45,302 nucleotides of DNA from Candidatus Caccoplasma merdipullorum (GTDB taxonomy: Bacteria > Bacteroidota > Bacteroidia > Bacteroidales > G3-4614). The notes below the pieces were generated by a model, which ran no database searches, was not told the DNA's origin, and saw only the letters and a program-made list of their open reading frames with translations. Numbering within the stretch: the stretch's first letter is position 1; each line of letters opens with the position of its first letter. The translations under genes and the position numbers were made by a program. Shown here in pieces: positions 13,309 through 23,971 of this stretch. Where the stretch lies: NCBI GenBank assembly GCA_017694415.1, contig JADIMW010000006.1, positions 1 to 45,302 on the forward strand. The letters run 5' to 3'.

Positions 13309-13863
13309 ATGCGACGGTTATTGTTAATCATCGACCCGCAAATGGATTTTATCGACGGCAGCCTGCCTGTCCCGGGTGCGGCGGCATGCATGGAGGCTCT
13401 GGCTGAATATATACGCAACGCGAAGGATAATTATGTTTGCAAAGCTGTTACTACCGACTGGCACCCGTATAATCATTGTTCTTTTGCGGAACAAGGAGGC
13501 GGGTGGCCGATGCATTGCGTGCAAAACAGTTCGGGTGCGGCTGTTTTTCCTGCCGTACTGGAGGCTCTTTATTCGACTCCGGGCAAAGTTATGATTCTCC
13601 GAAAGGGGGTACGGAAAAGAACGGAAGAGTATTCGATATTCAAGAACCGCCGTTCGTCTATACAATTGGACAATGTCATACGCAACATGAAAATTGAAGG
13701 GATAGATATTTGCGGTATTGCCGGAGATGTATGCTTACTGAACACGCTTAAAGACGGAATAGAATTATACGGAGCCGGCATGTTCCGCGTATTGCCTCGT
13801 TTCTCGCCTTCGCTCGACGGGGGCGTATTGTTGAATAACGCCATAAAATCCTTATCGGAATGA
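13309..13863 (+). CDS. pncA: Nicotinamidase (isochorismatase-like hydrolase)
   Basis: 184 residues of the cysteine-hydrolase isochorismatase superfamily. The catalytic triad is visible: Asp9 (IIDPQMDF), Lys99 (ILRKG) and Cys142 (AGDVCLLN). Metal ligands Asp50, His52 and His56 lie in TTDWHPYNHCSF, as in nicotinamidases. It would deamidate nicotinamide to nicotinate for NAD+ salvage. The next gene makes nicotinate mononucleotide, and the two overlap by 4 nt (ATGA), which makes nicotinamide a much better substrate guess than isochorismate. Both converge with the TIR/nSTAND operon, whose TIR domain could consume NAD+ and release nicotinamide. Confidence 0.9.
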   Translation: MRRLLLIIDPQMDFIDGSLPVPGAAACMEALAEYIRNAKDNYVCKAVTTDWHPYNHCSFAEQGGGWPMHCVQNSSGAAVFPAVLEALYSTPGKVMILRKGVRKRTEEYSIFKNRRSSIQLDNVIRNMKIEGIDICGIAGDVCLLNTLKDGIELYGAGMFRVLPRFSPSLDGGVLLNNAIKSLSE

Positions 13864-15074
13864 AACAGATAATAAATCACTTTACCGATGACGACCTGTA
13901 CAAGTTTTCGATGTGCTGCGCGGTCATTGACAATTTCCCGAGAGCTCAAGTGAAATATACTTTTACCGACCGCGACAATACTGTATATCCCGAAGGGTTC
14001 GCCCGTGAATTGACCGAACAGATAGAGAGTTTCGAATCGCTGCGGATTACCGACGACGAGATTGATTTCATGAAACGCAAATGCTATTTTATTCCGGGCT
14101 GGTTCTACAACTACCTTAAAGGATTCCGATTCAACAGGAAATGGGTAAAGGCCCGACAAGACGATGAAGGGCATTTGCATATCGATATTGAAGGGAGCTG
14201 GTCGGATACGATATTTTTGGAGGTAAAGATTTTAGCTGTCATATCGGAACTTTATTATGTCATGACGGGCAAAAGCCGTCTGTTCGATTACGATGCGTAC
14301 TACGAAAAGACATACGGCAAAGGGGCTCGCCTGTTAGATGCTGGATGCGTGTTCAGCGATTTCGGCACGAGACGCCGCGCCTCGTTCGAGGCTGAGGATA
14401 CTGTTGTAAGGGCAATGAAAGAGTGCTGCCGCGACAAGAACGGAGGGAAGGGCAAGTTTGTCGGGACGAGCAATGTTTACTTGGCAATGAAACACGACGT
14501 TCTCCCGGTAGGGACAATGGCTCACGAGTTTGTCTGTGCAATAGGTGGGATGTTCGGCCCGCAAATGGCAAACAATATAGCGATGAATTCGTGGCGCAAT
14601 ACGTTCCGCGGGGCACTGGGCACATATCTTTACGACAGTTTCGGCTGGGATATTTTCAGCATGAATTTTTCGGAGGATTTCGCAAATTTGTTCAAAGGTC
14701 TCAGAATAGACAGTGGAGACAATTACGAACAACTGTCGAACATTGTGGCTAAATACCGTTCTCTTGGTATCGACCCGAAAACGAAACAGGTAGTTTTCAG
14801 CAACGCTCTCTGTACGGATACGGCCATAGAGATAGAAAAATACGCTCGCAACCTTTGTCTCCCGTCATACGGAATAGGAACTCACTTTACCAATGATTTC
14901 GACGGTGTCAAACCGATGAATATCGTAATAAAGCTTATTGCCGCAAAAATCACCGAATCGTGGAAGTTTTACAACGATACTTGCAAAATAAGCGAAGATA
15001 AAGGGAAGCATACGGGTAACCCCGATGTTGTCCGTCGCTTTATGGAGATACTCCACATAAAGCAACAAGCATAA
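13860..15074 (+). CDS. pncB: Nicotinate phosphoribosyltransferase
   Basis: 404 residues. It condenses nicotinate with PRPP to nicotinate mononucleotide, the rate-setting Preiss-Handler step of NAD+ synthesis. Characteristic stretches are HFTDDDLYKFSM near the N-terminus, FSDFGTRRRASFEAE, a LRIDSGDNYEQLS phosphoribosyl-binding segment and GIGTHFTNDFDG. Length is standard for the bacterial PncB branch. The ATG overlaps the pncA stop by 4 nt, so the pair is translationally coupled. No convincing terminator follows; AACGG/CCGTT at 15077-15095 could form a weak hairpin. The operon ends 140 bp from the stop of a convergent accessory operon. Confidence 0.95.
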   Translation: MKQIINHFTDDDLYKFSMCCAVIDNFPRAQVKYTFTDRDNTVYPEGFARELTEQIESFESLRITDDEIDFMKRKCYFIPGWFYNYLKGFRFNRKWVKARQDDEGHLHIDIEGSWSDTIFLEVKILAVISELYYVMTGKSRLFDYDAYYEKTYGKGARLLDAGCVFSDFGTRRRASFEAEDTVVRAMKECCRDKNGGKGKFVGTSNVYLAMKHDVLPVGTMAHEFVCAIGGMFGPQMANNIAMNSWRNTFRGALGTYLYDSFGWDIFSMNFSEDFANLFKGLRIDSGDNYEQLSNIVAKYRSLGIDPKTKQVVFSNALCTDTAIEIEKYARNLCLPSYGIGTHFTNDFDGVKPMNIVIKLIAAKITESWKFYNDTCKISEDKGKHTGNPDVVRRFMEILHIKQQA

Positions 15075-15214: not shown

Positions 15215-17938
15215 TTATTTGCCTGATTGCCGGTTCTGCTTGTAGGCACTCTTCGTGGCTTTCAATATTTGCCTATATACATTGCTGTTTACATAACAGT
15301 AAAACCAGTCCGTATAAAGAGGCTCTTTGCGCTGCGTAATTGTTATGATGTTGTCCATGTCGGTAGTAAAGGAATATGACGCATCGACATATACCGACGA
15401 TTTCAACTCTCTGGATGCCAATATGTCGGAGAATGCATCCAATTCCATGCCGTTGTGCCATATCAGCCCTTTGCTTTCTACGCTCGATGCCAGCAGTATT
15501 GCAGGCACGGGGATTTTTTGCTGGAATGACAGATACCGTATGTTCCTGCACATGTCGGGATAGGCTATTATTACAGGTTTGTCGCCGGCATATTTGTTCC
15601 CTTTATCGAACTCGCTCCATGACACGAGCGGTTTGTTCGACTTCACGTTTTCATCTATCGCCTTTATAATCCGCTCTTTCTGAACTTTGGTAAGATAACG
15701 GATATGTGCGATAAATCCATGTTTGTCATAAGAGCCTTTTAGTCCGGATATTTCAACCAAACGGTAATCGAGAGTAAGAGGGTCGATTCTGAAAACCACC
15801 ATCTTCTTCTCCTTTTCTGTCGTAAGGACGGAATAGAGCGACCATTTTGCCATTATCTCGTTCAATGTGGGGGTTTCTGCAAAATCGGCCGAATATTCGC
15901 CGTATATCAATACAACATCATTGTCTTTAAGCCCGAGAGAATATGCTATACTGTCGGTTACCTCTACACTCATTACCTTTGGCAATTCGTTGCGGAGCAT
16001 TTTAAAGTCTTCTATTACATCGTTGTTTTCGTCGTAATATTTGCTACGTCCGTTTGCGCCGATTCTCTGGTAATAATACAACTGTTCCGATGTTACATCG
16101 ATATAATCCTTTTCGTTAAATTCGTCCCTGCCCGTGAATGACGACAATTCGTCCTTGCACGAATAGATGGCATCGGCTCTGTGCCACCTCGCTCCGCGGT
16201 ATCCTCCCGAACGGCTCGGGATACCGTAACAGTTTATATCGTACAGGCTTTTGACTTTTGTAAATGTCGTGTCGAAAACAGTCGCGACACACTCAATCAT
16301 CGCTCCGTCCTTGTTGTATATATAGTTTTTCGATGTATATGTCAGAGAATCCGTCTCTTTTATACGTTTTGCTCCCTTGTCGCCTACATTTACCGGTTTG
16401 CCGTCCGAATCGAAATACATGCCGGTTACTACTGTTTTGCCTTGACTGTCGTTATATGAAATAATATTTTTGAACCACCCCGAGAGTTGTGTCCGCGGAC
16501 TTCCGTCTTTTTCGTAATATGCAACCGATACCGTCCGGCCTTTTGCATCGAACATGTCTATTTCGTACGTTCCGTCGCCTAACATTTCATATATGCAACT
16601 GTCGGTCTTTTCGTATTTATACACGAGTTCCTCCTGTCCTGTACACGACGAATACTCTTCCGACAACACTATTTCTCCCGCTGCGCCGTATCCGTATCGT
16701 TTCCGCGACGGATATAGCACTGTTACGCACGGATTCTCATCCTTGTCGAGGTTCAACTGTTCCGTTATCCTTCCTGCATCATCATATTCTTTTTTTATAA
16801 CGGCGATTCCGGAATGGCTGTTGTTTACAAGTTCACCGTTGCTGTCGTAAAAACGGATATCGGTAATGTCGCCATAATCGTTGTACGAATATGCAATCTT
16901 ATGTATTCCCGATGCATTGCTGTCGGGATTCAAGCCGTCGGCCGACGTAAAATACAACTCCGACTGGCGTCCGTACATGTCATACCGGCTGTTGATTCTT
17001 ACTACTCCTTCTCCACCGGCAGAAAAGGGCGAAGAAGTCATCTTCATCGGTTTCCATTCCGTATCCATGCAGGTTACCGACGTTATATCGTAACCTGTCC
17101 ATGTAAATTCCAATCCGCAGTTTCCGCGATTGTCGGCAGCAAGCCTGCCTTTTCCGTCGCGCAACTCTTTTCGCAGTATTCTTCCTTCGGCATCATAGAC
17201 AAAACACTCTGCCGAAACCCCGTAAGAGTTCGGTTTAGTTATTCCTGCGGCATCCATATACTCTATAACCCTGTCATTCCCCCACTTGTCCTCGGTTATC
17301 ATCACCAGAGTTCCGTATGTATAGCCGGGGTCTTTACGCATCTCTGCCGGCAAGCCGTAGCAATCCTTGTACGAACCTACATACTGCTCGTTACCGTAGG
17401 CATCGCGCCCTATCGGGGTTCGGGAAAACAGATATACTATATTCCCGTCTTTGTCGAGGGCGCGCTCTTGTATGAGATTTATTCCCGACGGGTCGGGTAT
17501 AAGTTCGAATATACATGTAGTTTTAAGTTTCTCCACCCACTTGGTATCGGCGGACATGTCGGATTCGGAGGTATATATGTTCAATATGTACGGACTTAAT
17601 CCTGAAGACACGAAATCGCCCCGCCCGTTTATAGATTCCATCTTGCACCACCGGCCTTTTGCGTTGCGATTGGTAAACCGATAGACTATACCATGGTGGC
17701 GCGCCGTTTCTTCCGTAATCATCTTAAGCGGGGCATACCATCCGTACTGTTTTTTTATGCTTGTACAATATACCGTATCGGGCAACGGAGCTGCATGGTG
17801 TCGGTGTTTTTCCGGTACATCTGCTTGTCCGACCCGTTCATATCCCTTTTTCATATCGACAAGCATTGACCTCCGAATCTGGGGATATACGGCCTGCGAC
17901 AGTATAAAGAGGAGTATTGCTATTGTATTTTTTTTCAT
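15215..17938 (-). CDS. Exported YD-like repeat protein with PDZ-like domain (fourth gene of the TIR/nSTAND operon)
   Basis: 907 residues from ATG 17938, chosen because it gives a clean signal peptide (MKKNTIAILLFILSQAVYPQ) and lies 7 nt after the upstream stop; an in-frame ATG at 17959 would overlap that gene. No lipobox is seen, so it is probably periplasmic or surface-exposed. The body holds at least six loosely repeated units of the form YD-x-x-GR (YDAEGRILRK, YDMYGRQSEL, YDDAGRITEQ, FDAKGRTVSV), like weak Rhs/YD repeats. Near 655-723 a PDZ-like stretch (SIAYSLGLKDNDVVLIYG) occurs. The last 180 residues are unrecognised. Residues from about 65 on align with the second half of the nSTAND protein and with the 377-residue neighbour. 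It is probably a sensor or ligand partner; this is inference. Confidence 0.7.
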   Translation of the reverse strand: MKKNTIAILLFILSQAVYPQIRRSMLVDMKKGYERVGQADVPEKHRHHAAPLPDTVYCTSIKKQYGWYAPLKMITEETARHHGIVYRFTNRNAKGRWCKMESINGRGDFVSSGLSPYILNIYTSESDMSADTKWVEKLKTTCIFELIPDPSGINLIQERALDKDGNIVYLFSRTPIGRDAYGNEQYVGSYKDCYGLPAEMRKDPGYTYGTLVMITEDKWGNDRVIEYMDAAGITKPNSYGVSAECFVYDAEGRILRKELRDGKGRLAADNRGNCGLEFTWTGYDITSVTCMDTEWKPMKMTSSPFSAGGEGVVRINSRYDMYGRQSELYFTSADGLNPDSNASGIHKIAYSYNDYGDITDIRFYDSNGELVNNSHSGIAVIKKEYDDAGRITEQLNLDKDENPCVTVLYPSRKRYGYGAAGEIVLSEEYSSCTGQEELVYKYEKTDSCIYEMLGDGTYEIDMFDAKGRTVSVAYYEKDGSPRTQLSGWFKNIISYNDSQGKTVVTGMYFDSDGKPVNVGDKGAKRIKETDSLTYTSKNYIYNKDGAMIECVATVFDTTFTKVKSLYDINCYGIPSRSGGYRGARWHRADAIYSCKDELSSFTGRDEFNEKDYIDVTSEQLYYYQRIGANGRSKYYDENNDVIEDFKMLRNELPKVMSVEVTDSIAYSLGLKDNDVVLIYGEYSADFAETPTLNEIMAKWSLYSVLTTEKEKKMVVFRIDPLTLDYRLVEISGLKGSYDKHGFIAHIRYLTKVQKERIIKAIDENVKSNKPLVSWSEFDKGNKYAGDKPVIIAYPDMCRNIRYLSFQQKIPVPAILLASSVESKGLIWHNGMELDAFSDILASRELKSSVYVDASYSFTTDMDNIITITQRKEPLYTDWFYCYVNSNVYRQILKATKSAYKQNRQSGK

Positions 17939-17945
17939 GGCAAAT

Positions 17946-19079
17946 CTATCTCGAAGCATTTTCTTCCGTCATGACGTTACCTTCAATATCGTAATAGGTC
18001 GTTTCGGTTATTACCCCGTCGGGGGCATACCGATATACTATCTTGTGCAACCCGGAAGAGGTTGTATCATTGTTCCCGAACTCGTCCATAAAAACCGATT
18101 CCACATCGCGGCCGTATTCGTCCTTTCTGGTATCGCAGCGTATGAACGTACGCAGACCGCTCGCACGCAGGGACGGCATCCGCATCGGTTCGAGGTTTTC
18201 ATCTACACGGATAACCGAGCAGATATTGTTTTCATCGTCGTATATATACAGGTTCCCGCAGTTTCCCCAATTATCTCGGATATTGTCGCCTGTAACATTA
18301 TGCGATGTTACACGTATCACCCTGTCCTTGTCGTCGTATAGATAACATTCTCTGTCCACGCCGTTGGGGTTGTATTTTCCCAATCCTTGTCCGTCGAGGT
18401 AGTTTATCACGGAATCGCGACCGCATCTATCGTATGTTATAGAAACGACGCTTCCGTATGTCGTTGTCGAATCGGAACGCATATCGGCAGGAAGCCCCCA
18501 TGCATCGTTATAACTCCCCACAATCGTATTGTCGGAAATCTTCACGGGGATAAAGCTGTAAATCAACGTCCCGTCCTTATCGTATGCCCGCTCTTCGACA
18601 ATTTCGTTTCCCGACAAATCGGATGTCATAAACCACTGCGTTATCCGGTTTACGTTTATGCGCCACTCGATATTGTCGGTTTCGGCCGCATTTTTTTTGT
18701 CTATCACATACGGGCTGATATTGTGCTTGCATGTCATTGAATCCTGATGCATAGCCTGCACATGCTGCCAGTGTCCCTGCCTGTTGCGCATCGACAGGCG
18801 GAAATAGTACGGAAGACGGTTTGCCACTTCCTGCGTAATTGTATCGCCAACCCCTTCATACCATGTGTGTTTGCGTATTATATCTCTGTACAAAGCCGTT
18901 TCTCCGCTTTCTTCTGTTTCGGCATTATGCGATGCCGTTGCCCTGTGCGATACAGGTATGGACAACCTTGTATTCCTGTTCTCGGAGGACTTGTTGATTA
19001 TCGATATTTTACGAACCTGTCCCTGAAGTGAAAGCAGCCCGATGAAAATGAACATAAATATAAAGCCTGTCTTTGTCAT
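17946..19079 (-). CDS. Short exported paralogue of the YD-like sensor module (third gene of operon)
   Basis: 377 residues with signal peptide MTKTGFIFMFIFIGLLSLQG. It is collinear with the first ~370 residues of the downstream 907-residue protein: shared blocks include ERAYDKDGTLIY / ERALDKDGNIVY, VGSYNDAWGLPADMR / VGSYKDCYGLPAEMR, NWGNCG / NRGNCG and GLHKIVYRY / GIHKIAYSY. It ends where the longer protein continues into more repeats and the PDZ-like domain, so it is either a natural single-module form or a 3'-truncated duplicate; the stop is clean and the downstream gene starts 7 nt later. Its ATG overlaps the nSTAND stop by 4 nt, indicating translational coupling. Function unknown; exported sensor component is inferred. 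Confidence 0.7.
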   Translation of the reverse strand: MTKTGFIFMFIFIGLLSLQGQVRKISIINKSSENRNTRLSIPVSHRATASHNAETEESGETALYRDIIRKHTWYEGVGDTITQEVANRLPYYFRLSMRNRQGHWQHVQAMHQDSMTCKHNISPYVIDKKNAAETDNIEWRINVNRITQWFMTSDLSGNEIVEERAYDKDGTLIYSFIPVKISDNTIVGSYNDAWGLPADMRSDSTTTYGSVVSITYDRCGRDSVINYLDGQGLGKYNPNGVDRECYLYDDKDRVIRVTSHNVTGDNIRDNWGNCGNLYIYDDENNICSVIRVDENLEPMRMPSLRASGLRTFIRCDTRKDEYGRDVESVFMDEFGNNDTTSSGLHKIVYRYAPDGVITETTYYDIEGNVMTEENASR

Positions 19080-22000
19080 GGTTCGCTGTGTTTTAATACG
19101 TAATTGAAACGGCGCAACTCTTCACGCGATAGTTTTATATAATGATATTCTTCATTTCCGGCCTTGCCGCGGCATACCTCTTTTTGTATCCGCCGGAATC
19201 TGAATCCCGACGGACGCAATACCTCCATGGCAAGAGTTGCAGTGCCGGCACGTTGCCATTCTGCAACTAAACGGGCTTCGGTATCGCCTGTTTCCCAGTT
19301 TCCCAACCGTACTATTCTGTCCCCGTCGCGAAAACCGGCCTTGTAAAGAGGACTCTCTTTATCCAGTATATGCAGGAACGGGAACTGTACGTCGGATATA
19401 TTGTCGGCCGGGACAAATGATGTCTGTCCGAGCGGTGCGGTTATCTCTATCTCTTCCTGCGTCGTTTTCAGTGTTACCACCTTGTTTTGCAGGTTCAGAT
19501 ACGACACCTTGAAATAACTGTCGGATACAGGATCGAAAAGCGTACTCGGCATATTGAATTCGTCCACTACTTTTATCCCTGCATAGTTGTTATTGTTATC
19601 CTTGTTGAAATAAAGCATGTAATACAGCAGGCCTTCCTCTTCCCAATCGGCGCATCTGACGGGTGTGCCATCGACCCCCATTACAGCACGGGCGTACCCG
19701 TTTTCATAAAAATACATCATCGATTTGAGTATCTTCATGTTTTCGTCATACAGCTTGTAATACTTTATATGCTTCTTGTCGTCGAACTGCTGTTCTTTAC
19801 AATAGTACGACGTTACTATTCCGTACTCGTTTTTTATCGTAGGGCACGGTACCGTCCCTCTCCGCTTGTTGAATGTATAATACTTTATTATCTCCTTTTC
19901 GCCCGATACGGACTTTTCCCTCTTGTGGAATATCATTGTGGAATCTTCCTCTGCGGTTTTCCAATTTACCGGGGTTTTGTCTCTTCCGTAAAATACTGTA
20001 ACATGTTTGTCTTGCCCGAACGAATCGACCCGTTCGATATAATACTGTTTTTTTACATCGTCCGTTATTATCGTCTGCCTGTTGTCTTCTATTATCTTTT
20101 CGTAATAATAGATGCGTTTTTTATCTGCCGAACTGAAATGCTCCTCACGCAACAATTCCCCTGATTCGGAATATCGCCATGCCTTTTTATAGATACTGTC
20201 GTTTTTAGAAATGAAAGGGTTTCCGTCCTTATCGAGTTTCTCAATCTGCGTCAAATACCCTTTTGCTCCGGAATACTCGTATTTAACCGTTGCAGGGTAT
20301 GACACATATAGTTTTCCCTCTATTTTTTCCTCTATTATATTGCCGTGCGCATCGCGTTTCATATATTTTACGGCAACCGGTTTTTCGTCCCTCGGGTTAT
20401 ACATGTACGCCTTATCTTTTACGGTACATATTTTATAATACCCGTCCGGCCCGTAAACTTTCATTATCGTGGTATCTTGCAGGCTGGATACTTTTCCGTA
20501 CGATACGATTGTAGTATCGCCTTTCAGTTCGGTTGTACGAACATTGTACCACGATTCCGATACGCGTCCGAACTCATCGAGCGTATATCGCGATACGCTT
20601 TTGTCGTCGGGATATTTATATGCGAAACCGCAGATATTGTCGGCAGTAATGGAACGGCAGACTCCCAGATTGTCGTAATACAATACGTCAGCTATCCGAC
20701 CTTCATCGTTTATTGTTATCCGCATGCGGTTTACGCTGTTGTCGCGTATTTCGAGGTTCTGCCCGGTCGCATCGACAAAGTGTCCCCACAAGTCGGTACT
20801 GTTCGGTATATGGAAATAATTGATTATATAGAGTATGTCGCCGCTTTCGTCAAGTGCTATTTCCCTGTCTATAACATTTCTGTCTTCGCCTGAAACAAAA
20901 TGCACCTGTTTTACTTTCGATACTAAACTTCGGAAATATCCGGCCTTGACGTCATTGTCGGTCATTTTGTTTTCATCGGCATCGAACATACGCATCTTCG
21001 ATAGATACGGCATTTGCGACGTGGCCGATATTATGTCCATGTCGGTATAGTTTTCGGTAAGGCGGCCACGTTTCGACAATTTGTAATATAATGGTGTCCG
21101 GGCTCTTTGTTCCAAAGTAAGTTTCTCGCCTATTCCTATCGGCCAGCCGTTGCGGCGGTCGAAATAAGCGTAACAGGCTTCGAATTTGCGGATATTCCAG
21201 TCCCAATAAAGCAAACTCGCGGACAGCAGTATCAATACCAAACCCGAAACCGCTATCAGCCGCGTCCTGTTGCGTTTTCGGATTTTCAACGCTTCAGCTT
21301 CCATCGAGGCCTTTTCGGCCGCAGCTTTGGCTTCCAGTTCTTTCAGTTTGCGGTCTTCTTCGGCCAGCAGTTTCCGTGTCTTTTCTCTTTGTGCGCGCTG
21401 TTCTTTCCGTTTGCTTATTACCGAGCAGAGTATGTCGTGTATGAATTCCACCCTATAATCGCCGGCATACGAGAACTTGCGCAGCAACTGACGGTCTATC
21501 AGTTTGTTGATATACTCTCCGCCCAATTCCCGGCACAATATCTTCAACGACTTGTTTTCGCGGCGGTTGTCTTCGTTCAAAAGATTGTCTTCGAGATATT
21601 CCACTACATTTTTGGGAATGTCTTTAAAACAATCGGAATAAAAGTTCTCGATAATCTCTCCGCCTTTTTCCTCTACAAGCCGCGCAGATATTATATCTTC
21701 GGTTTTTTCCTCATACAATCTGTTTAGGTATAACGATAAGACCGCCGAATCGACCTCCAATACGGGATGTCCGTCGAGTTCGAAATCCGTTCTGTTGGTA
21801 ACCTTTTCGATAATCAGTTTGGCAACGTCTTTCGAGACCAGACCGGGATGCGGGCGCAAAATTATTTCTGCTGCCTGCTCTTCGCTTATCGGGCGCAACC
21901 CGTAACGGTGATGTTTCAACGACGGTATGCAAGCGGTGTGATATTCAAATTCCGAAAGGAAATCCTCTCGCAACGTAAATACCAGATGTATCTCGTTGTC

Positions 22001-22636
22001 ATATACGTATCCTGCCGAGCCGTCGCCTATGTCGAACTCCATATCGTCCAAATCGAACAAGAATCCTGCATCTTTCTCCGCATCACGCGGCTGTTCGGGT
22101 TCTTCTTTGGGATGAGATGTTTCATTCAGGGCATTAGGCATGACGTTGTTCAAAACATCTGCCATCTCCTCGAAAAAACGGCGTCTTGCCAACGAATTCT
22201 GCTGCAGTGTAAAAATCTCTTCAAACTGGTCGAAAATTATAAGCAACTTCGCCCGTTCTCCGTTTTTGGTATAAAATTCGTTGCAGTGGAACAATTCCCA
22301 CAGGAGTTCGCGTGTTCCTTTCTTCGGGACTATATTTCTTATCTCTATTCCTTCCTCTACGAGTACATTGGAAATCTGGTTTACATAATCGCTCTCCTTT
22401 TCGTTATGTTCCAGTCGTATATATACGGGGGTAAAACCCTTTCTTCTCGCCGCAGGAATAACGCCGGCATTCAATATGGAGGATTTGCCTATTCCGGAAC
22501 GTCCGTACAATAGAGTATCGATATCGTTCAACACTCTTTGCGACAGAGCGCGGATGTCTTCATCTCGTCCATACAGAACCTCCCCTTCGCGATATGATTT
22601 TAGACCCAGCCATGGGTTTGAACCGTTACTGCTCAT
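19076..22636 (-). CDS. Transmembrane nSTAND NTPase with C-terminal YD-like sensor module and PDZ-like domain (second gene of operon)
   Basis: 1186 residues. The N-terminus is an nSTAND1-type NTPase: PWLGLKSYREGEVLYGR, Walker A GRSGIGKS (45-52), Walker B LLIIFDQFEEIF (131-142) and a FTLREDFLSEFE segment (220-231). A charged coiled coil (about 410-457) leads to one membrane helix (459-478). The rest, about 700 residues, is presumably extracytoplasmic. It resembles the exported neighbours (GW near 493, DESGDILYIINYF, DEFGRVSESWY) and ends in a PDZ-like domain (about 1077-1150, SPLYKAGFRDGDRIVRLG). STAND proteins are ligand-triggered oligomerising switches. This layout suggests sensing outside and signalling inside, probably to the SIR2/TIR protein encoded 9 nt upstream. 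The topology is unusual for the class and rests on one predicted helix. Confidence 0.8.
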   Translation of the reverse strand: MSSNGSNPWLGLKSYREGEVLYGRDEDIRALSQRVLNDIDTLLYGRSGIGKSSILNAGVIPAARRKGFTPVYIRLEHNEKESDYVNQISNVLVEEGIEIRNIVPKKGTRELLWELFHCNEFYTKNGERAKLLIIFDQFEEIFTLQQNSLARRRFFEEMADVLNNVMPNALNETSHPKEEPEQPRDAEKDAGFLFDLDDMEFDIGDGSAGYVYDNEIHLVFTLREDFLSEFEYHTACIPSLKHHRYGLRPISEEQAAEIILRPHPGLVSKDVAKLIIEKVTNRTDFELDGHPVLEVDSAVLSLYLNRLYEEKTEDIISARLVEEKGGEIIENFYSDCFKDIPKNVVEYLEDNLLNEDNRRENKSLKILCRELGGEYINKLIDRQLLRKFSYAGDYRVEFIHDILCSVISKRKEQRAQREKTRKLLAEEDRKLKELEAKAAAEKASMEAEALKIRKRNRTRLIAVSGLVLILLSASLLYWDWNIRKFEACYAYFDRRNGWPIGIGEKLTLEQRARTPLYYKLSKRGRLTENYTDMDIISATSQMPYLSKMRMFDADENKMTDNDVKAGYFRSLVSKVKQVHFVSGEDRNVIDREIALDESGDILYIINYFHIPNSTDLWGHFVDATGQNLEIRDNSVNRMRITINDEGRIADVLYYDNLGVCRSITADNICGFAYKYPDDKSVSRYTLDEFGRVSESWYNVRTTELKGDTTIVSYGKVSSLQDTTIMKVYGPDGYYKICTVKDKAYMYNPRDEKPVAVKYMKRDAHGNIIEEKIEGKLYVSYPATVKYEYSGAKGYLTQIEKLDKDGNPFISKNDSIYKKAWRYSESGELLREEHFSSADKKRIYYYEKIIEDNRQTIITDDVKKQYYIERVDSFGQDKHVTVFYGRDKTPVNWKTAEEDSTMIFHKREKSVSGEKEIIKYYTFNKRRGTVPCPTIKNEYGIVTSYYCKEQQFDDKKHIKYYKLYDENMKILKSMMYFYENGYARAVMGVDGTPVRCADWEEEGLLYYMLYFNKDNNNNYAGIKVVDEFNMPSTLFDPVSDSYFKVSYLNLQNKVVTLKTTQEEIEITAPLGQTSFVPADNISDVQFPFLHILDKESPLYKAGFRDGDRIVRLGNWETGDTEARLVAEWQRAGTATLAMEVLRPSGFRFRRIQKEVCRGKAGNEEYHYIKLSREELRRFNYVLKHSEP

Positions 22637-22645
22637 ATATGTTTC

Positions 22646-23971
22646 CTACTCTTGATTCATTATATGTAATATCTTGTCGGCAACAGATTTCATATTGTCG
22701 TTCTGATTGAAGATTATTGCGTTGTGCTGCTGCATCTTCTCCGGTATCGAGGCTTTGTAAAAATCGAACCCGTCTTCCGACACCGGTATTATATATTTAC
22801 GTCCCAAACTTATGGCAACCTGCATGGCTTCATCCCATTCGTTTCGGTAAACATGAACCTCGTTCCGTTCCTCCTCTATGTGTTTAGTGAAAATCGGGAC
22901 GAAATATCGTGCCGACCTTATTCCGCTTCTTATTTCCGACATGAAATTTCCGCCGTAACTTATATCGTTCCTGTCATACCAGACTCGCTTGCCTCTTGCC
23001 GACAATTCGTTGTATAAGGCTTCTGCTATTTTGGAATCGGAACGTGAATAGGAGATAAAAATATCGGTATTGGTATCGACTCTGTCGAACTTGGTCTTTT
23101 CATTTTTCGATATTTTATCTTCGAGCATCTTTTTTATCTTACCGACAACCTCTTCAGGGTCTTTCCGTATAAATGTATGGTGGCGTTCCAGAAAATCGGG
23201 CAGCCCGTCTTCCACCACGTCATATACATAGAGTCCCTCACCTTCATTTACTTTTCGTATGGAATACCATATGAAACGGAACAACCAGTCGGAATACGAA
23301 TTTCCCAACATGAGAAGATATTTGTTTTTCAATTCCGACACAAGATTGTTAGGCCGGAGATTCGTATCGGAGAGCCATGATGAACAGAAACTCAGCATGT
23401 CGGTATCGGTAAGAACATATCTGCGGGCATTTTCGCCAACTTTTCCAAACATGTAATAGACCGTAGGTTTACGCAAGTCGGCCTCCCCGCATATATCGTT
23501 ATTCTCGGACGGATTGTTGTTAAAACGCATCACCCTCAACTCGTCGCCCCAAACTTCACGCATCGCATCTTCCACAAGAGGCGTAAAGGAAGTTGTTATC
23601 ACAAACGGGAACTGCCTTATACTCAACAACTCTCTCAACAGTCTTGACGGTTGGAACTTCTTGGTGAATATTTGGTTCATTATCATATATATGGCATCCC
23701 GTTCGTTTCTGGTCTGACGAATAAAATCATAATTGTAAACCAGTTCGGAAAAGGATTTAGGCTTGTCGCTCAATCTGAACTTGGCCGAAATATATTCTAC
23801 CAGTTTGTCATGAAGATTAGCTCCGTCATATAATATGCCGGGACCTATCACAGGAATCACGTCGCCGCGCAGGATTCCCTCAATCAGTCTGTCCCATGCA
23901 GGTTTATCGTTATCTATAAAAATAGAGTCGCCGCTTATGTCTTTACTAAAAAAATCGTCAAATACATCCAT
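22646..23971 (-). CDS. SIR2-like/TIR-domain protein, putative NAD+-targeting effector (first gene of operon)
   Basis: 441 residues, no signal peptide or membrane helix. Residues 25-290 resemble the SIR2_2 fold: GDVIPVIGPGI (36-46) is the glycine-rich loop and LLMLGNSYSDWLFRF (219-233) the second nucleotide-side motif. The usual TTN-x-D is TTSFT (126-130), and the usual His-Gly is Phe175-Gly176, so the SIR2 part may have lost catalysis. Residues 302-441 are a TIR domain: DIFISYSRSD (303-312), VWYDRNDISYGGNF, and YRNEWDEA with a candidate catalytic glutamate at 378. Many bacterial TIR domains cleave NAD+ or make cyclic ADP-ribose signals on infection. It leads a four-gene operon with an nSTAND switch, so effector is the natural role; none of this is tested. 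Confidence 0.82.
   Translation of the reverse strand: MDVFDDFFSKDISGDSIFIDNDKPAWDRLIEGILRGDVIPVIGPGILYDGANLHDKLVEYISAKFRLSDKPKSFSELVYNYDFIRQTRNERDAIYMIMNQIFTKKFQPSRLLRELLSIRQFPFVITTSFTPLVEDAMREVWGDELRVMRFNNNPSENNDICGEADLRKPTVYYMFGKVGENARRYVLTDTDMLSFCSSWLSDTNLRPNNLVSELKNKYLLMLGNSYSDWLFRFIWYSIRKVNEGEGLYVYDVVEDGLPDFLERHHTFIRKDPEEVVGKIKKMLEDKISKNEKTKFDRVDTNTDIFISYSRSDSKIAEALYNELSARGKRVWYDRNDISYGGNFMSEIRSGIRSARYFVPIFTKHIEEERNEVHVYRNEWDEAMQVAISLGRKYIIPVSEDGFDFYKASIPEKMQQHNAIIFNQNDNMKSVADKILHIMNQE

Follow-up and report, generated by a model that had tools for sequence, protein, structure and literature searches.

A transmembrane STAND protein and its secreted paralogues: a possible Toll-like sensing system of Bacteroidales

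Introduction

Why would one module occur in three adjacent bacterial proteins, fused in one of them to a STAND switch and free in the other two? This question is raised by a 45,302-nucleotide stretch of DNA from Candidatus Caccoplasma merdipullorum, which we refer to as the window. An earlier note on the window had proposed that the free copies are exported and that all three co-assemble, perhaps as decoys, co-receptors or a heteromeric sensor. Here, we consider the homology, predicted folds, distribution and history of these proteins, and we ask which of those readings they favor.

Organization of the operon

Four minus-strand genes, overlapping or almost touching, encode a SIR2-like+TIR protein, an nSTAND1 protein with one transmembrane (TM) helix and an ectodomain, and secreted proteins of 377 and 914 aa. 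The coordinates given in the earlier note are correct. The features are as follows.

22646..23971, minus strand: SIR2-like+TIR protein, 441 aa, first gene, predicted effector (Pfam TIR_2, 8.4e-21; SIR2_2, 7.4e-10)
19076..22636, minus strand: nSTAND protein (P0002), 1186 aa, the switch: nSTAND1 NTPase, one TM helix, ectodomain (Pfam nSTAND1, 7.4e-25)
21347..22615, minus strand: nSTAND1 NTPase region, aa ~8-430, cytosolic (Pfam nSTAND1)
21203..21259, minus strand: single TM helix of nSTAND, aa ~460-478 (hydropathy peak 2.24 at 460)
20642..21190, minus strand: N-terminal sensor module of the nSTAND ectodomain, aa ~483-665 (profiles A4, A9)
19436..20641, minus strand: YD/Rhs-like beta-hairpin sheet of nSTAND, aa ~666-1067 (AlphaFold2 model, pLDDT 83; Foldseek matches to Rhs, teneurin, Tc)
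19157..19429, minus strand: PDZ-like domain of nSTAND, aa ~1070-1160 (VIA-align Z 6-7 to HtrA/DegQ PDZ; profile matches)
17946..19079, minus strand: P0003, short secreted paralogue, 377 aa, with signal peptide, N-module and first hairpins, without PDZ (sequence and profile alignments)
15215..17959, minus strand: P0004, long secreted paralogue, 914 aa, or 907 aa if it starts at Met8 (sequence/profile alignment, AlphaFold2 model)
17072..17782, minus strand: N-terminal sensor module of P0004, aa 60-296 (profile matches)
15671..15985, minus strand: PDZ-like domain of P0004, aa ~659-763 (GRASP55 domain match; profile alignment to the nSTAND PDZ-like domain)

The switch is assigned with confidence by Pfam (PF20703, 88.8 bits vs a cut-off of 27.1) and carries a Walker A motif, GRSGIGKS, at 45 and a Walker B motif, LIIFDQFEE, at 132; the TM helix near 460 is present in nearly all of its relatives. 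The P0003 gene overlaps the nSTAND gene by 4 bases, and P0004, whose likely start is Met8 at 17938, consists of a signal peptide, N-module, YD-like sheet, PDZ-like domain and an additional C-terminal domain. Both free proteins are essentially without annotation in family-model searches. The single TM helix and the signal peptides predict that the ectodomain and the secreted proteins are periplasmic.

Convergent to the operon, at 13309-15074 on the plus strand, lie genes for an isochorismatase-family (nicotinamidase-like) protein and a nicotinate phosphoribosyltransferase; that NAD salvage genes adjoin a predicted NADase may be chance. In a sibling genome, the position directly downstream of the operon is taken by a different, unassigned ORF, not by this pair.

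The TIR part of the first protein matches SARM1 and AbTIR, as well as the PADLOC candidate family PDC-S66 (1.8e-14). Its Glu378 is conserved in 46 of 46 aligned rows and, as we read the alignment, is presumed to be the catalytic Glu. The SIR2 part is degenerate, as judged from the same kind of alignment. At the Asn site, TTSF (once TTCF) stands for TTNYD, with Asn replaced by Ser, once by Cys, wherever the site is covered; at the His site, MFG, MLG or MMG stands for HG, with Phe, Leu or Met in all covered SIR2-TIR rows. In other words, the catalytic Asn and His of a sirtuin-type NADase (as in ThsA and DSR2) are absent from these rows where covered, and although FVITTSFT served as a search pattern and biases the Asn site, the His site is unbiased. 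Since the SIR2 Asn and His are lost and the TIR Glu378 is invariant, the TIR domain would be expected to be the active one, with a structural or ligand-binding role left to SIR2. By analogy with its family, the TIR domain is a predicted NADase effector that would cleave NAD+.

One module in three adjacent proteins

The module is homologous in all three proteins. P0003 and P0004 align at 32% over 379 aa (BLASTP E 1e-53), nSTAND residues 487-681 match P0003 at E 6e-8, and nSTAND matches P0004 weakly in pairwise comparison (E 7e-5). Two-sequence profiles compared with the nSTAND ectodomain gave E 1.5e-6 for P0003 and 0.0011 for P0004, with low hhalign probabilities (20% for A1 vs A3) that became decisive once relatives were added. 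With profiles built from 30 fused and 23 free relatives, the fused family matches the long free family at Prob 100 and E 3.2e-56 over 613 columns, the C-terminal PDZ-like domain included, and matches the short free family at E 3.5e-16. The HMM-HMM comparison proposed in the earlier note has thus been made, and it finds profile similarity over several hundred residues. The nSTAND ectodomain is a full-length paralogue of P0004 and a partial paralogue of P0003, which matches only the N-terminal ~45% of P0004 and lacks the PDZ part. Homology and signal peptides together bear out the picture of a single switch-fused copy accompanied by two exported ones.

The common order and wording that had been noticed by eye also hold among relatives, in which GW...G[IV]G, D-x-x-G-x-[IL]-x-Y and the YD repeats are conserved. 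By family models, the YD assignment is formally weak in the window proteins: P0004 reaches 18.7 bits for TIGR01643 (cut-off 15.8) and 18.4 for RHS_repeat, below the cut-off of 22, and P0002 and P0003 have no RHS_repeat or YD_repeat model (Pfam, TIGR01643) above cut-off.

Predicted folds

Single-chain AlphaFold2 models of the ectodomain (pLDDT 83, pTM 0.67) and of P0004 (pLDDT 86, pTM 0.63) predict a common architecture, a run of beta-hairpins followed by a PDZ-like domain, with the C-terminal domain extra in P0004. The top Foldseek ranks for the ectodomain and P0004 models are T6SS Rhs proteins, teneurins and Tc toxins (E 2e-10 and 4e-15); these matches speak for the hairpin-sheet type alone, because whole-chain TM-scores are low (0.1-0.2). 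Like those YD/Rhs proteins, the present ones are predicted to have a YD-like beta-hairpin sheet; unlike them, they have ~400 residues of sheet and no recognised toxin domain, and the sheet appears to serve as a receptor ectodomain or partner protein.

The PDZ-like stretch claimed for nSTAND and P0004 is weak by sequence (PDZ_6 E 0.038 in the window nSTAND, under the Pfam cut-off) and gains backing from profiles and models. A profile of the domain matches ~40 PDZ chains (best E 0.005), the nSTAND model resembles HtrA/DegQ at Z 6-7 over 69-76 residues, and P0004 659-763 resembles the GRASP55 domain at Z 7.4, values that, being under 8, are only suggestive by the tool's own guidance. The C-terminal domain of P0004 matched no Pfam family; this domain is variable among the free proteins (16% mean identity), and Pfam searches of 23 free proteins found no toxin families.

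Distribution and locus make-up

The sibling genome (L069) has all four genes and, on their upstream side, the same MutS-like gene as the window; six of the eight genomes of the genus are without the operon. A SIR2-TIR profile scan of ~85,000 prokaryote genomes yielded 39 loci, including one of four-gene form (L103) in the isolate Bacteroides ilei Marseille-P3208, all from Bacteroidales as far as record titles tell, and the same profile found no match among viral contigs. Most relatives are metagenome-assembled genomes. Gene overlap and order are conserved in Bacteroidales. An order-wide A4/A9 search, from which weak A4 matches with partial profile coverage (G055, G228, G370) were left out, found relatives to be rare, in G145 and G249 besides the genus of the window; thus, the family is patchy.

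Of the 34 non-redundant loci whose nSTAND has this ectodomain, 23 also carry free paralogues alongside it: one long copy at 16, a short plus a long copy at six, and two long copies at one. A short free gene is present at L070, for example. As the other 11 loci have none, a free copy is not always needed. Most of these 11 have, next to nSTAND, a gene with an FGE-sulfatase domain instead (assigned by Pfam in L084 and L107, and by a C-terminal motif elsewhere); L074 has neither. A Prevotella clade (L082, L084, L085, L088-L091, L107) is without free paralogue and has the FGE-sulfatase-domain gene after nSTAND. In 21 whole genomes, picked for carrying the system, every full-length free copy adjoins a fused copy, and unbiased order-wide scans found no orphan free copies.

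The same SIR2-TIR protein is also paired with nSTAND proteins of quite different ectodomain, at L048/L078 and L079; the one at L048:6226-10692 has LRR_5 and WD40 matches and extra TM helices, and the one at L079:11334-15731 has extra TM helices as well.

History and exchange of the sensor set

Two old groups, free copies (support 99/95) and fused copies (97/85), emerge from a tree built on 68 modules, with the kinase and TIR forms described below standing apart from both. Fused and free forms split once, long ago, and paired loci have been retained since. The short free copies, six in all, fall into a single clade whose sister consists of the long copies from those same loci, so they go back to one duplication, and P0003 is a later duplicate within one subgroup. 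The nSTAND ectodomains of L086 and L102 nest among the free copies; in other words, a free-type sensor is there fused to the switch.

Which parts have evolved together? In a distance-correlation (mirror-tree) test on 21 loci, SIR2-TIR and NTPase correlate at r 0.89 and ectodomain and free protein at 0.72, whereas cross pairs reach 0.25-0.37; the partial correlation of ectodomain and free protein is 0.71 (0 of 2000 permutations). In tree tests, with groups defined after viewing the other tree, the grouping of four-gene loci in the ectodomain tree is rejected by the NTPase data (delta lnL 172, p-AU 2e-111), as is the NTPase grouping by the ectodomain data (delta lnL 716, p-AU 1e-69). Additionally, identity profiles show that the relative most similar to L103, L073 or L072 changes near residue 420-480, in the membrane region. 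Covariation, tree tests and identity crossover lead us to conclude that the ectodomain travels with the product of another gene rather than with its own NTPase. The sensor parts, ectodomain plus free partners, pass between lineages as one cassette, and the switch and effector half stays paired. Low cross-correlation could stem from saturation, but the tree tests and the crossover argue against saturation as the sole cause. Since ectodomain and free gene are neighbors, their joint exchange may partly reflect linkage; linkage, however, fails to explain either the cut at the membrane boundary or the continued match between the cytosolic half and the SIR2-TIR gene.

Two Prevotella genomes present a further contrast. 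Between L083 and L092, the nSTAND proteins are 99% identical and the free proteins 45%, the latter better conserved in the N-module part than at the C-terminus; the flanks share ~86-90% DNA identity, and identity drops at the borders of the free gene. Replacement of the free gene or recent homogenisation of the nSTAND gene would account for this; an assembly artefact is a further possibility. One ectodomain may thus be able to function with widely differing free proteins.

The same module on other receptors

The ectodomain module also occurs directly after the TM helix of Ser/Thr kinases (L016, L073, L144) and on TIR-TM proteins, as would be expected of an outside sensor. In L148 the TIR-TM match covers the whole module; L145 and L146 were assigned from the juxtamembrane WDYNR...YxDYxxxxGxPxG motif, by eye, plus the repeats.

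L145:3957-7439, TIR-TM protein capped by the module
L146:726-4445, TIR-TM protein capped by the module
L148:3186-6389, TIR-TM protein capped by the module
L144:3559-7299, kinase-TM protein capped by the module
L073:3994-7803, kinase-TM protein capped by the module

The kinase-TM genes adjoin FHA genes and sometimes PP2C genes, and in L073 the module-bearing kinase lies 2 kb from a SIR2-TIR/nSTAND operon. Free paralogues were observed solely with the nSTAND form. A 494-aa ORF at L016 was considered as a free partner of the kinase and rejected: it has no signal peptide, it follows an in-frame stop of the kinase frame, and the intact kinases of L073 and L144 contain the corresponding region. The L016 kinase (L016:8049-11723, G145), whose frame is broken by one in-frame TAG, is possibly a pseudogene or an assembly error.

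Comparison with known systems

The four genes share with nSTAND1 conflict systems (PMC8195603) and nSTAND1 antigen sensors (PMC10907252), in the excerpts of those papers on which we draw, an nSTAND1 NTPase switch, TIR/SIR2-type effectors and modular C-terminal sensors. The sensors in these excerpts are mostly cytoplasmic, with one predicted to be periplasmic and no secreted twin, whereas the sensor considered here is predicted to lie on the far side of the membrane and is accompanied by secreted paralogues. The path proposed here, from sensor to NTPase oligomerisation to effector, is that of AVAST/Avs and of STAND defence proteins more generally. Those Avs proteins that have been characterised detect phage proteins intracellularly; our nSTAND protein matches no PADLOC family, Avs included, at E<=0.1. 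As in Thoeris, there are TIR and SIR2-type domains, of kinds that act on NAD, but here they are joined in one protein, the SIR2 domain is without catalytic residues, and a STAND receptor serves as the partner. Thoeris models fit poorly (ThcB4 40.6 bits vs a cut-off of 220; PADLOC ThsB matches limited to the TIR part), and no PADLOC or NCBIfam system model fits the operon. Animal Toll-like receptors sense outside the cell and have secreted co-receptors. By analogy only, the present system resembles them in its outside sensor, single TM helix, TIR output and secreted partner protein; it differs in that its cytosolic part is a STAND NTPase that would need to recruit a TIR protein, and sensor homology is not claimed. 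The system belongs to the broad STAND/TIR conflict kind and matches no named system; its novelty is provisional, the arrangement not having been found described in a literature search of partial coverage.

Proposed mechanism and alternatives

We propose that the four genes may form one alarm from envelope to cytosol. The ectodomain would join its free twin or twins in a periplasmic heteromer, which would be altered by an envelope signal: an arriving phage or toxin part, or exposed C-terminal peptides bound by the PDZ-like domains. The change would be relayed through the single TM helix to NTPase oligomerisation, the usual STAND way; the oligomer would cluster the SIR2-TIR protein, and the clustered TIR domains would destroy NAD+ or make an NAD-derived signal, so that the cell stops. 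Exchange of the sensor cassette would retarget one output to new signals. We lean, by a modest margin of belief, towards such an envelope sensor, heteromeric and in control of a cell-arrest switch that runs from STAND to TIR, in which assembly and TIR activity are predicted; by analogy, its role is probably defensive. The co-assembly suggested in the earlier note, as heteromeric sensor or co-receptor, is favored indirectly by ancient paired retention, ectodomain-free covariation, joint exchange at the membrane boundary and the free-type ectodomains in L086 and L102; a physical complex is what we infer from these.

Could the free paralogues instead be negative regulators or decoys, which occupy the ectodomain or compete for its ligand and keep the switch off until they are removed? 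They do share module and fold and have no membrane anchor, and the short form is a truncated copy. We nevertheless consider this unlikely, and disfavor the decoys of the earlier note, as the free copies group in a separate, ancient clade and are not recently truncated versions of the fused gene, mostly exceed the ectodomain in length, with an extra C-terminal domain, and always stand beside a fused copy in the genomes scanned; 11 loci, moreover, do without one. About equally improbable is an envelope-stress sensor, in which the PDZ-like domains would, in the manner of DegS, recognise C-termini that misfolded outer-membrane proteins expose, and the TIR domain would adjust metabolism without killing. 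The HtrA/DegQ-like PDZ matches, the FHA and PP2C genes beside the kinase versions, which are typical of regulation, and the NAD salvage genes adjoining the operon in the window fit this reading; patchy occurrence (two of eight genomes of the genus) and cassette exchange are, however, more typical of conflict systems, and outputs that combine TIR with STAND are familiar chiefly from immunity.

It would be surprising if the free proteins functioned independently of nSTAND, as surface adhesins or Rhs-like antibacterial proteins sharing just an old domain with it. Rhs/Tc/teneurin YD sheets are indeed the top fold matches and the C-terminal domain is variable, but operon coupling is tight, the genomes scanned hold no orphan free copies, the free protein covaries with the ectodomain, and its C-terminus has no known toxin family.

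Outlook

Our widest reading, a Bacteroidales transmembrane NLR/Toll-like system in which a heteromeric periplasmic sensor gates a STAND-TIR death switch, with an exchangeable cassette common to kinase and TIR receptors and combinatorial outside sensing, is a tentative one, which we hold with somewhat less than even confidence. The bacterial STAND defence proteins that have been studied well detect invaders in the cytoplasm. If our reading is true, a STAND protein that spans the membrane and has a secreted paralogue as its partner would move detection to the envelope, as in animal Toll receptors. Because the evolutionary data mark out the sensor pair as an exchangeable unit, sensor and output should be separable and could be re-paired in the laboratory. 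One module on STAND, kinase and TIR outputs points to a possible, as yet unnamed, class of Bacteroidales receptors.
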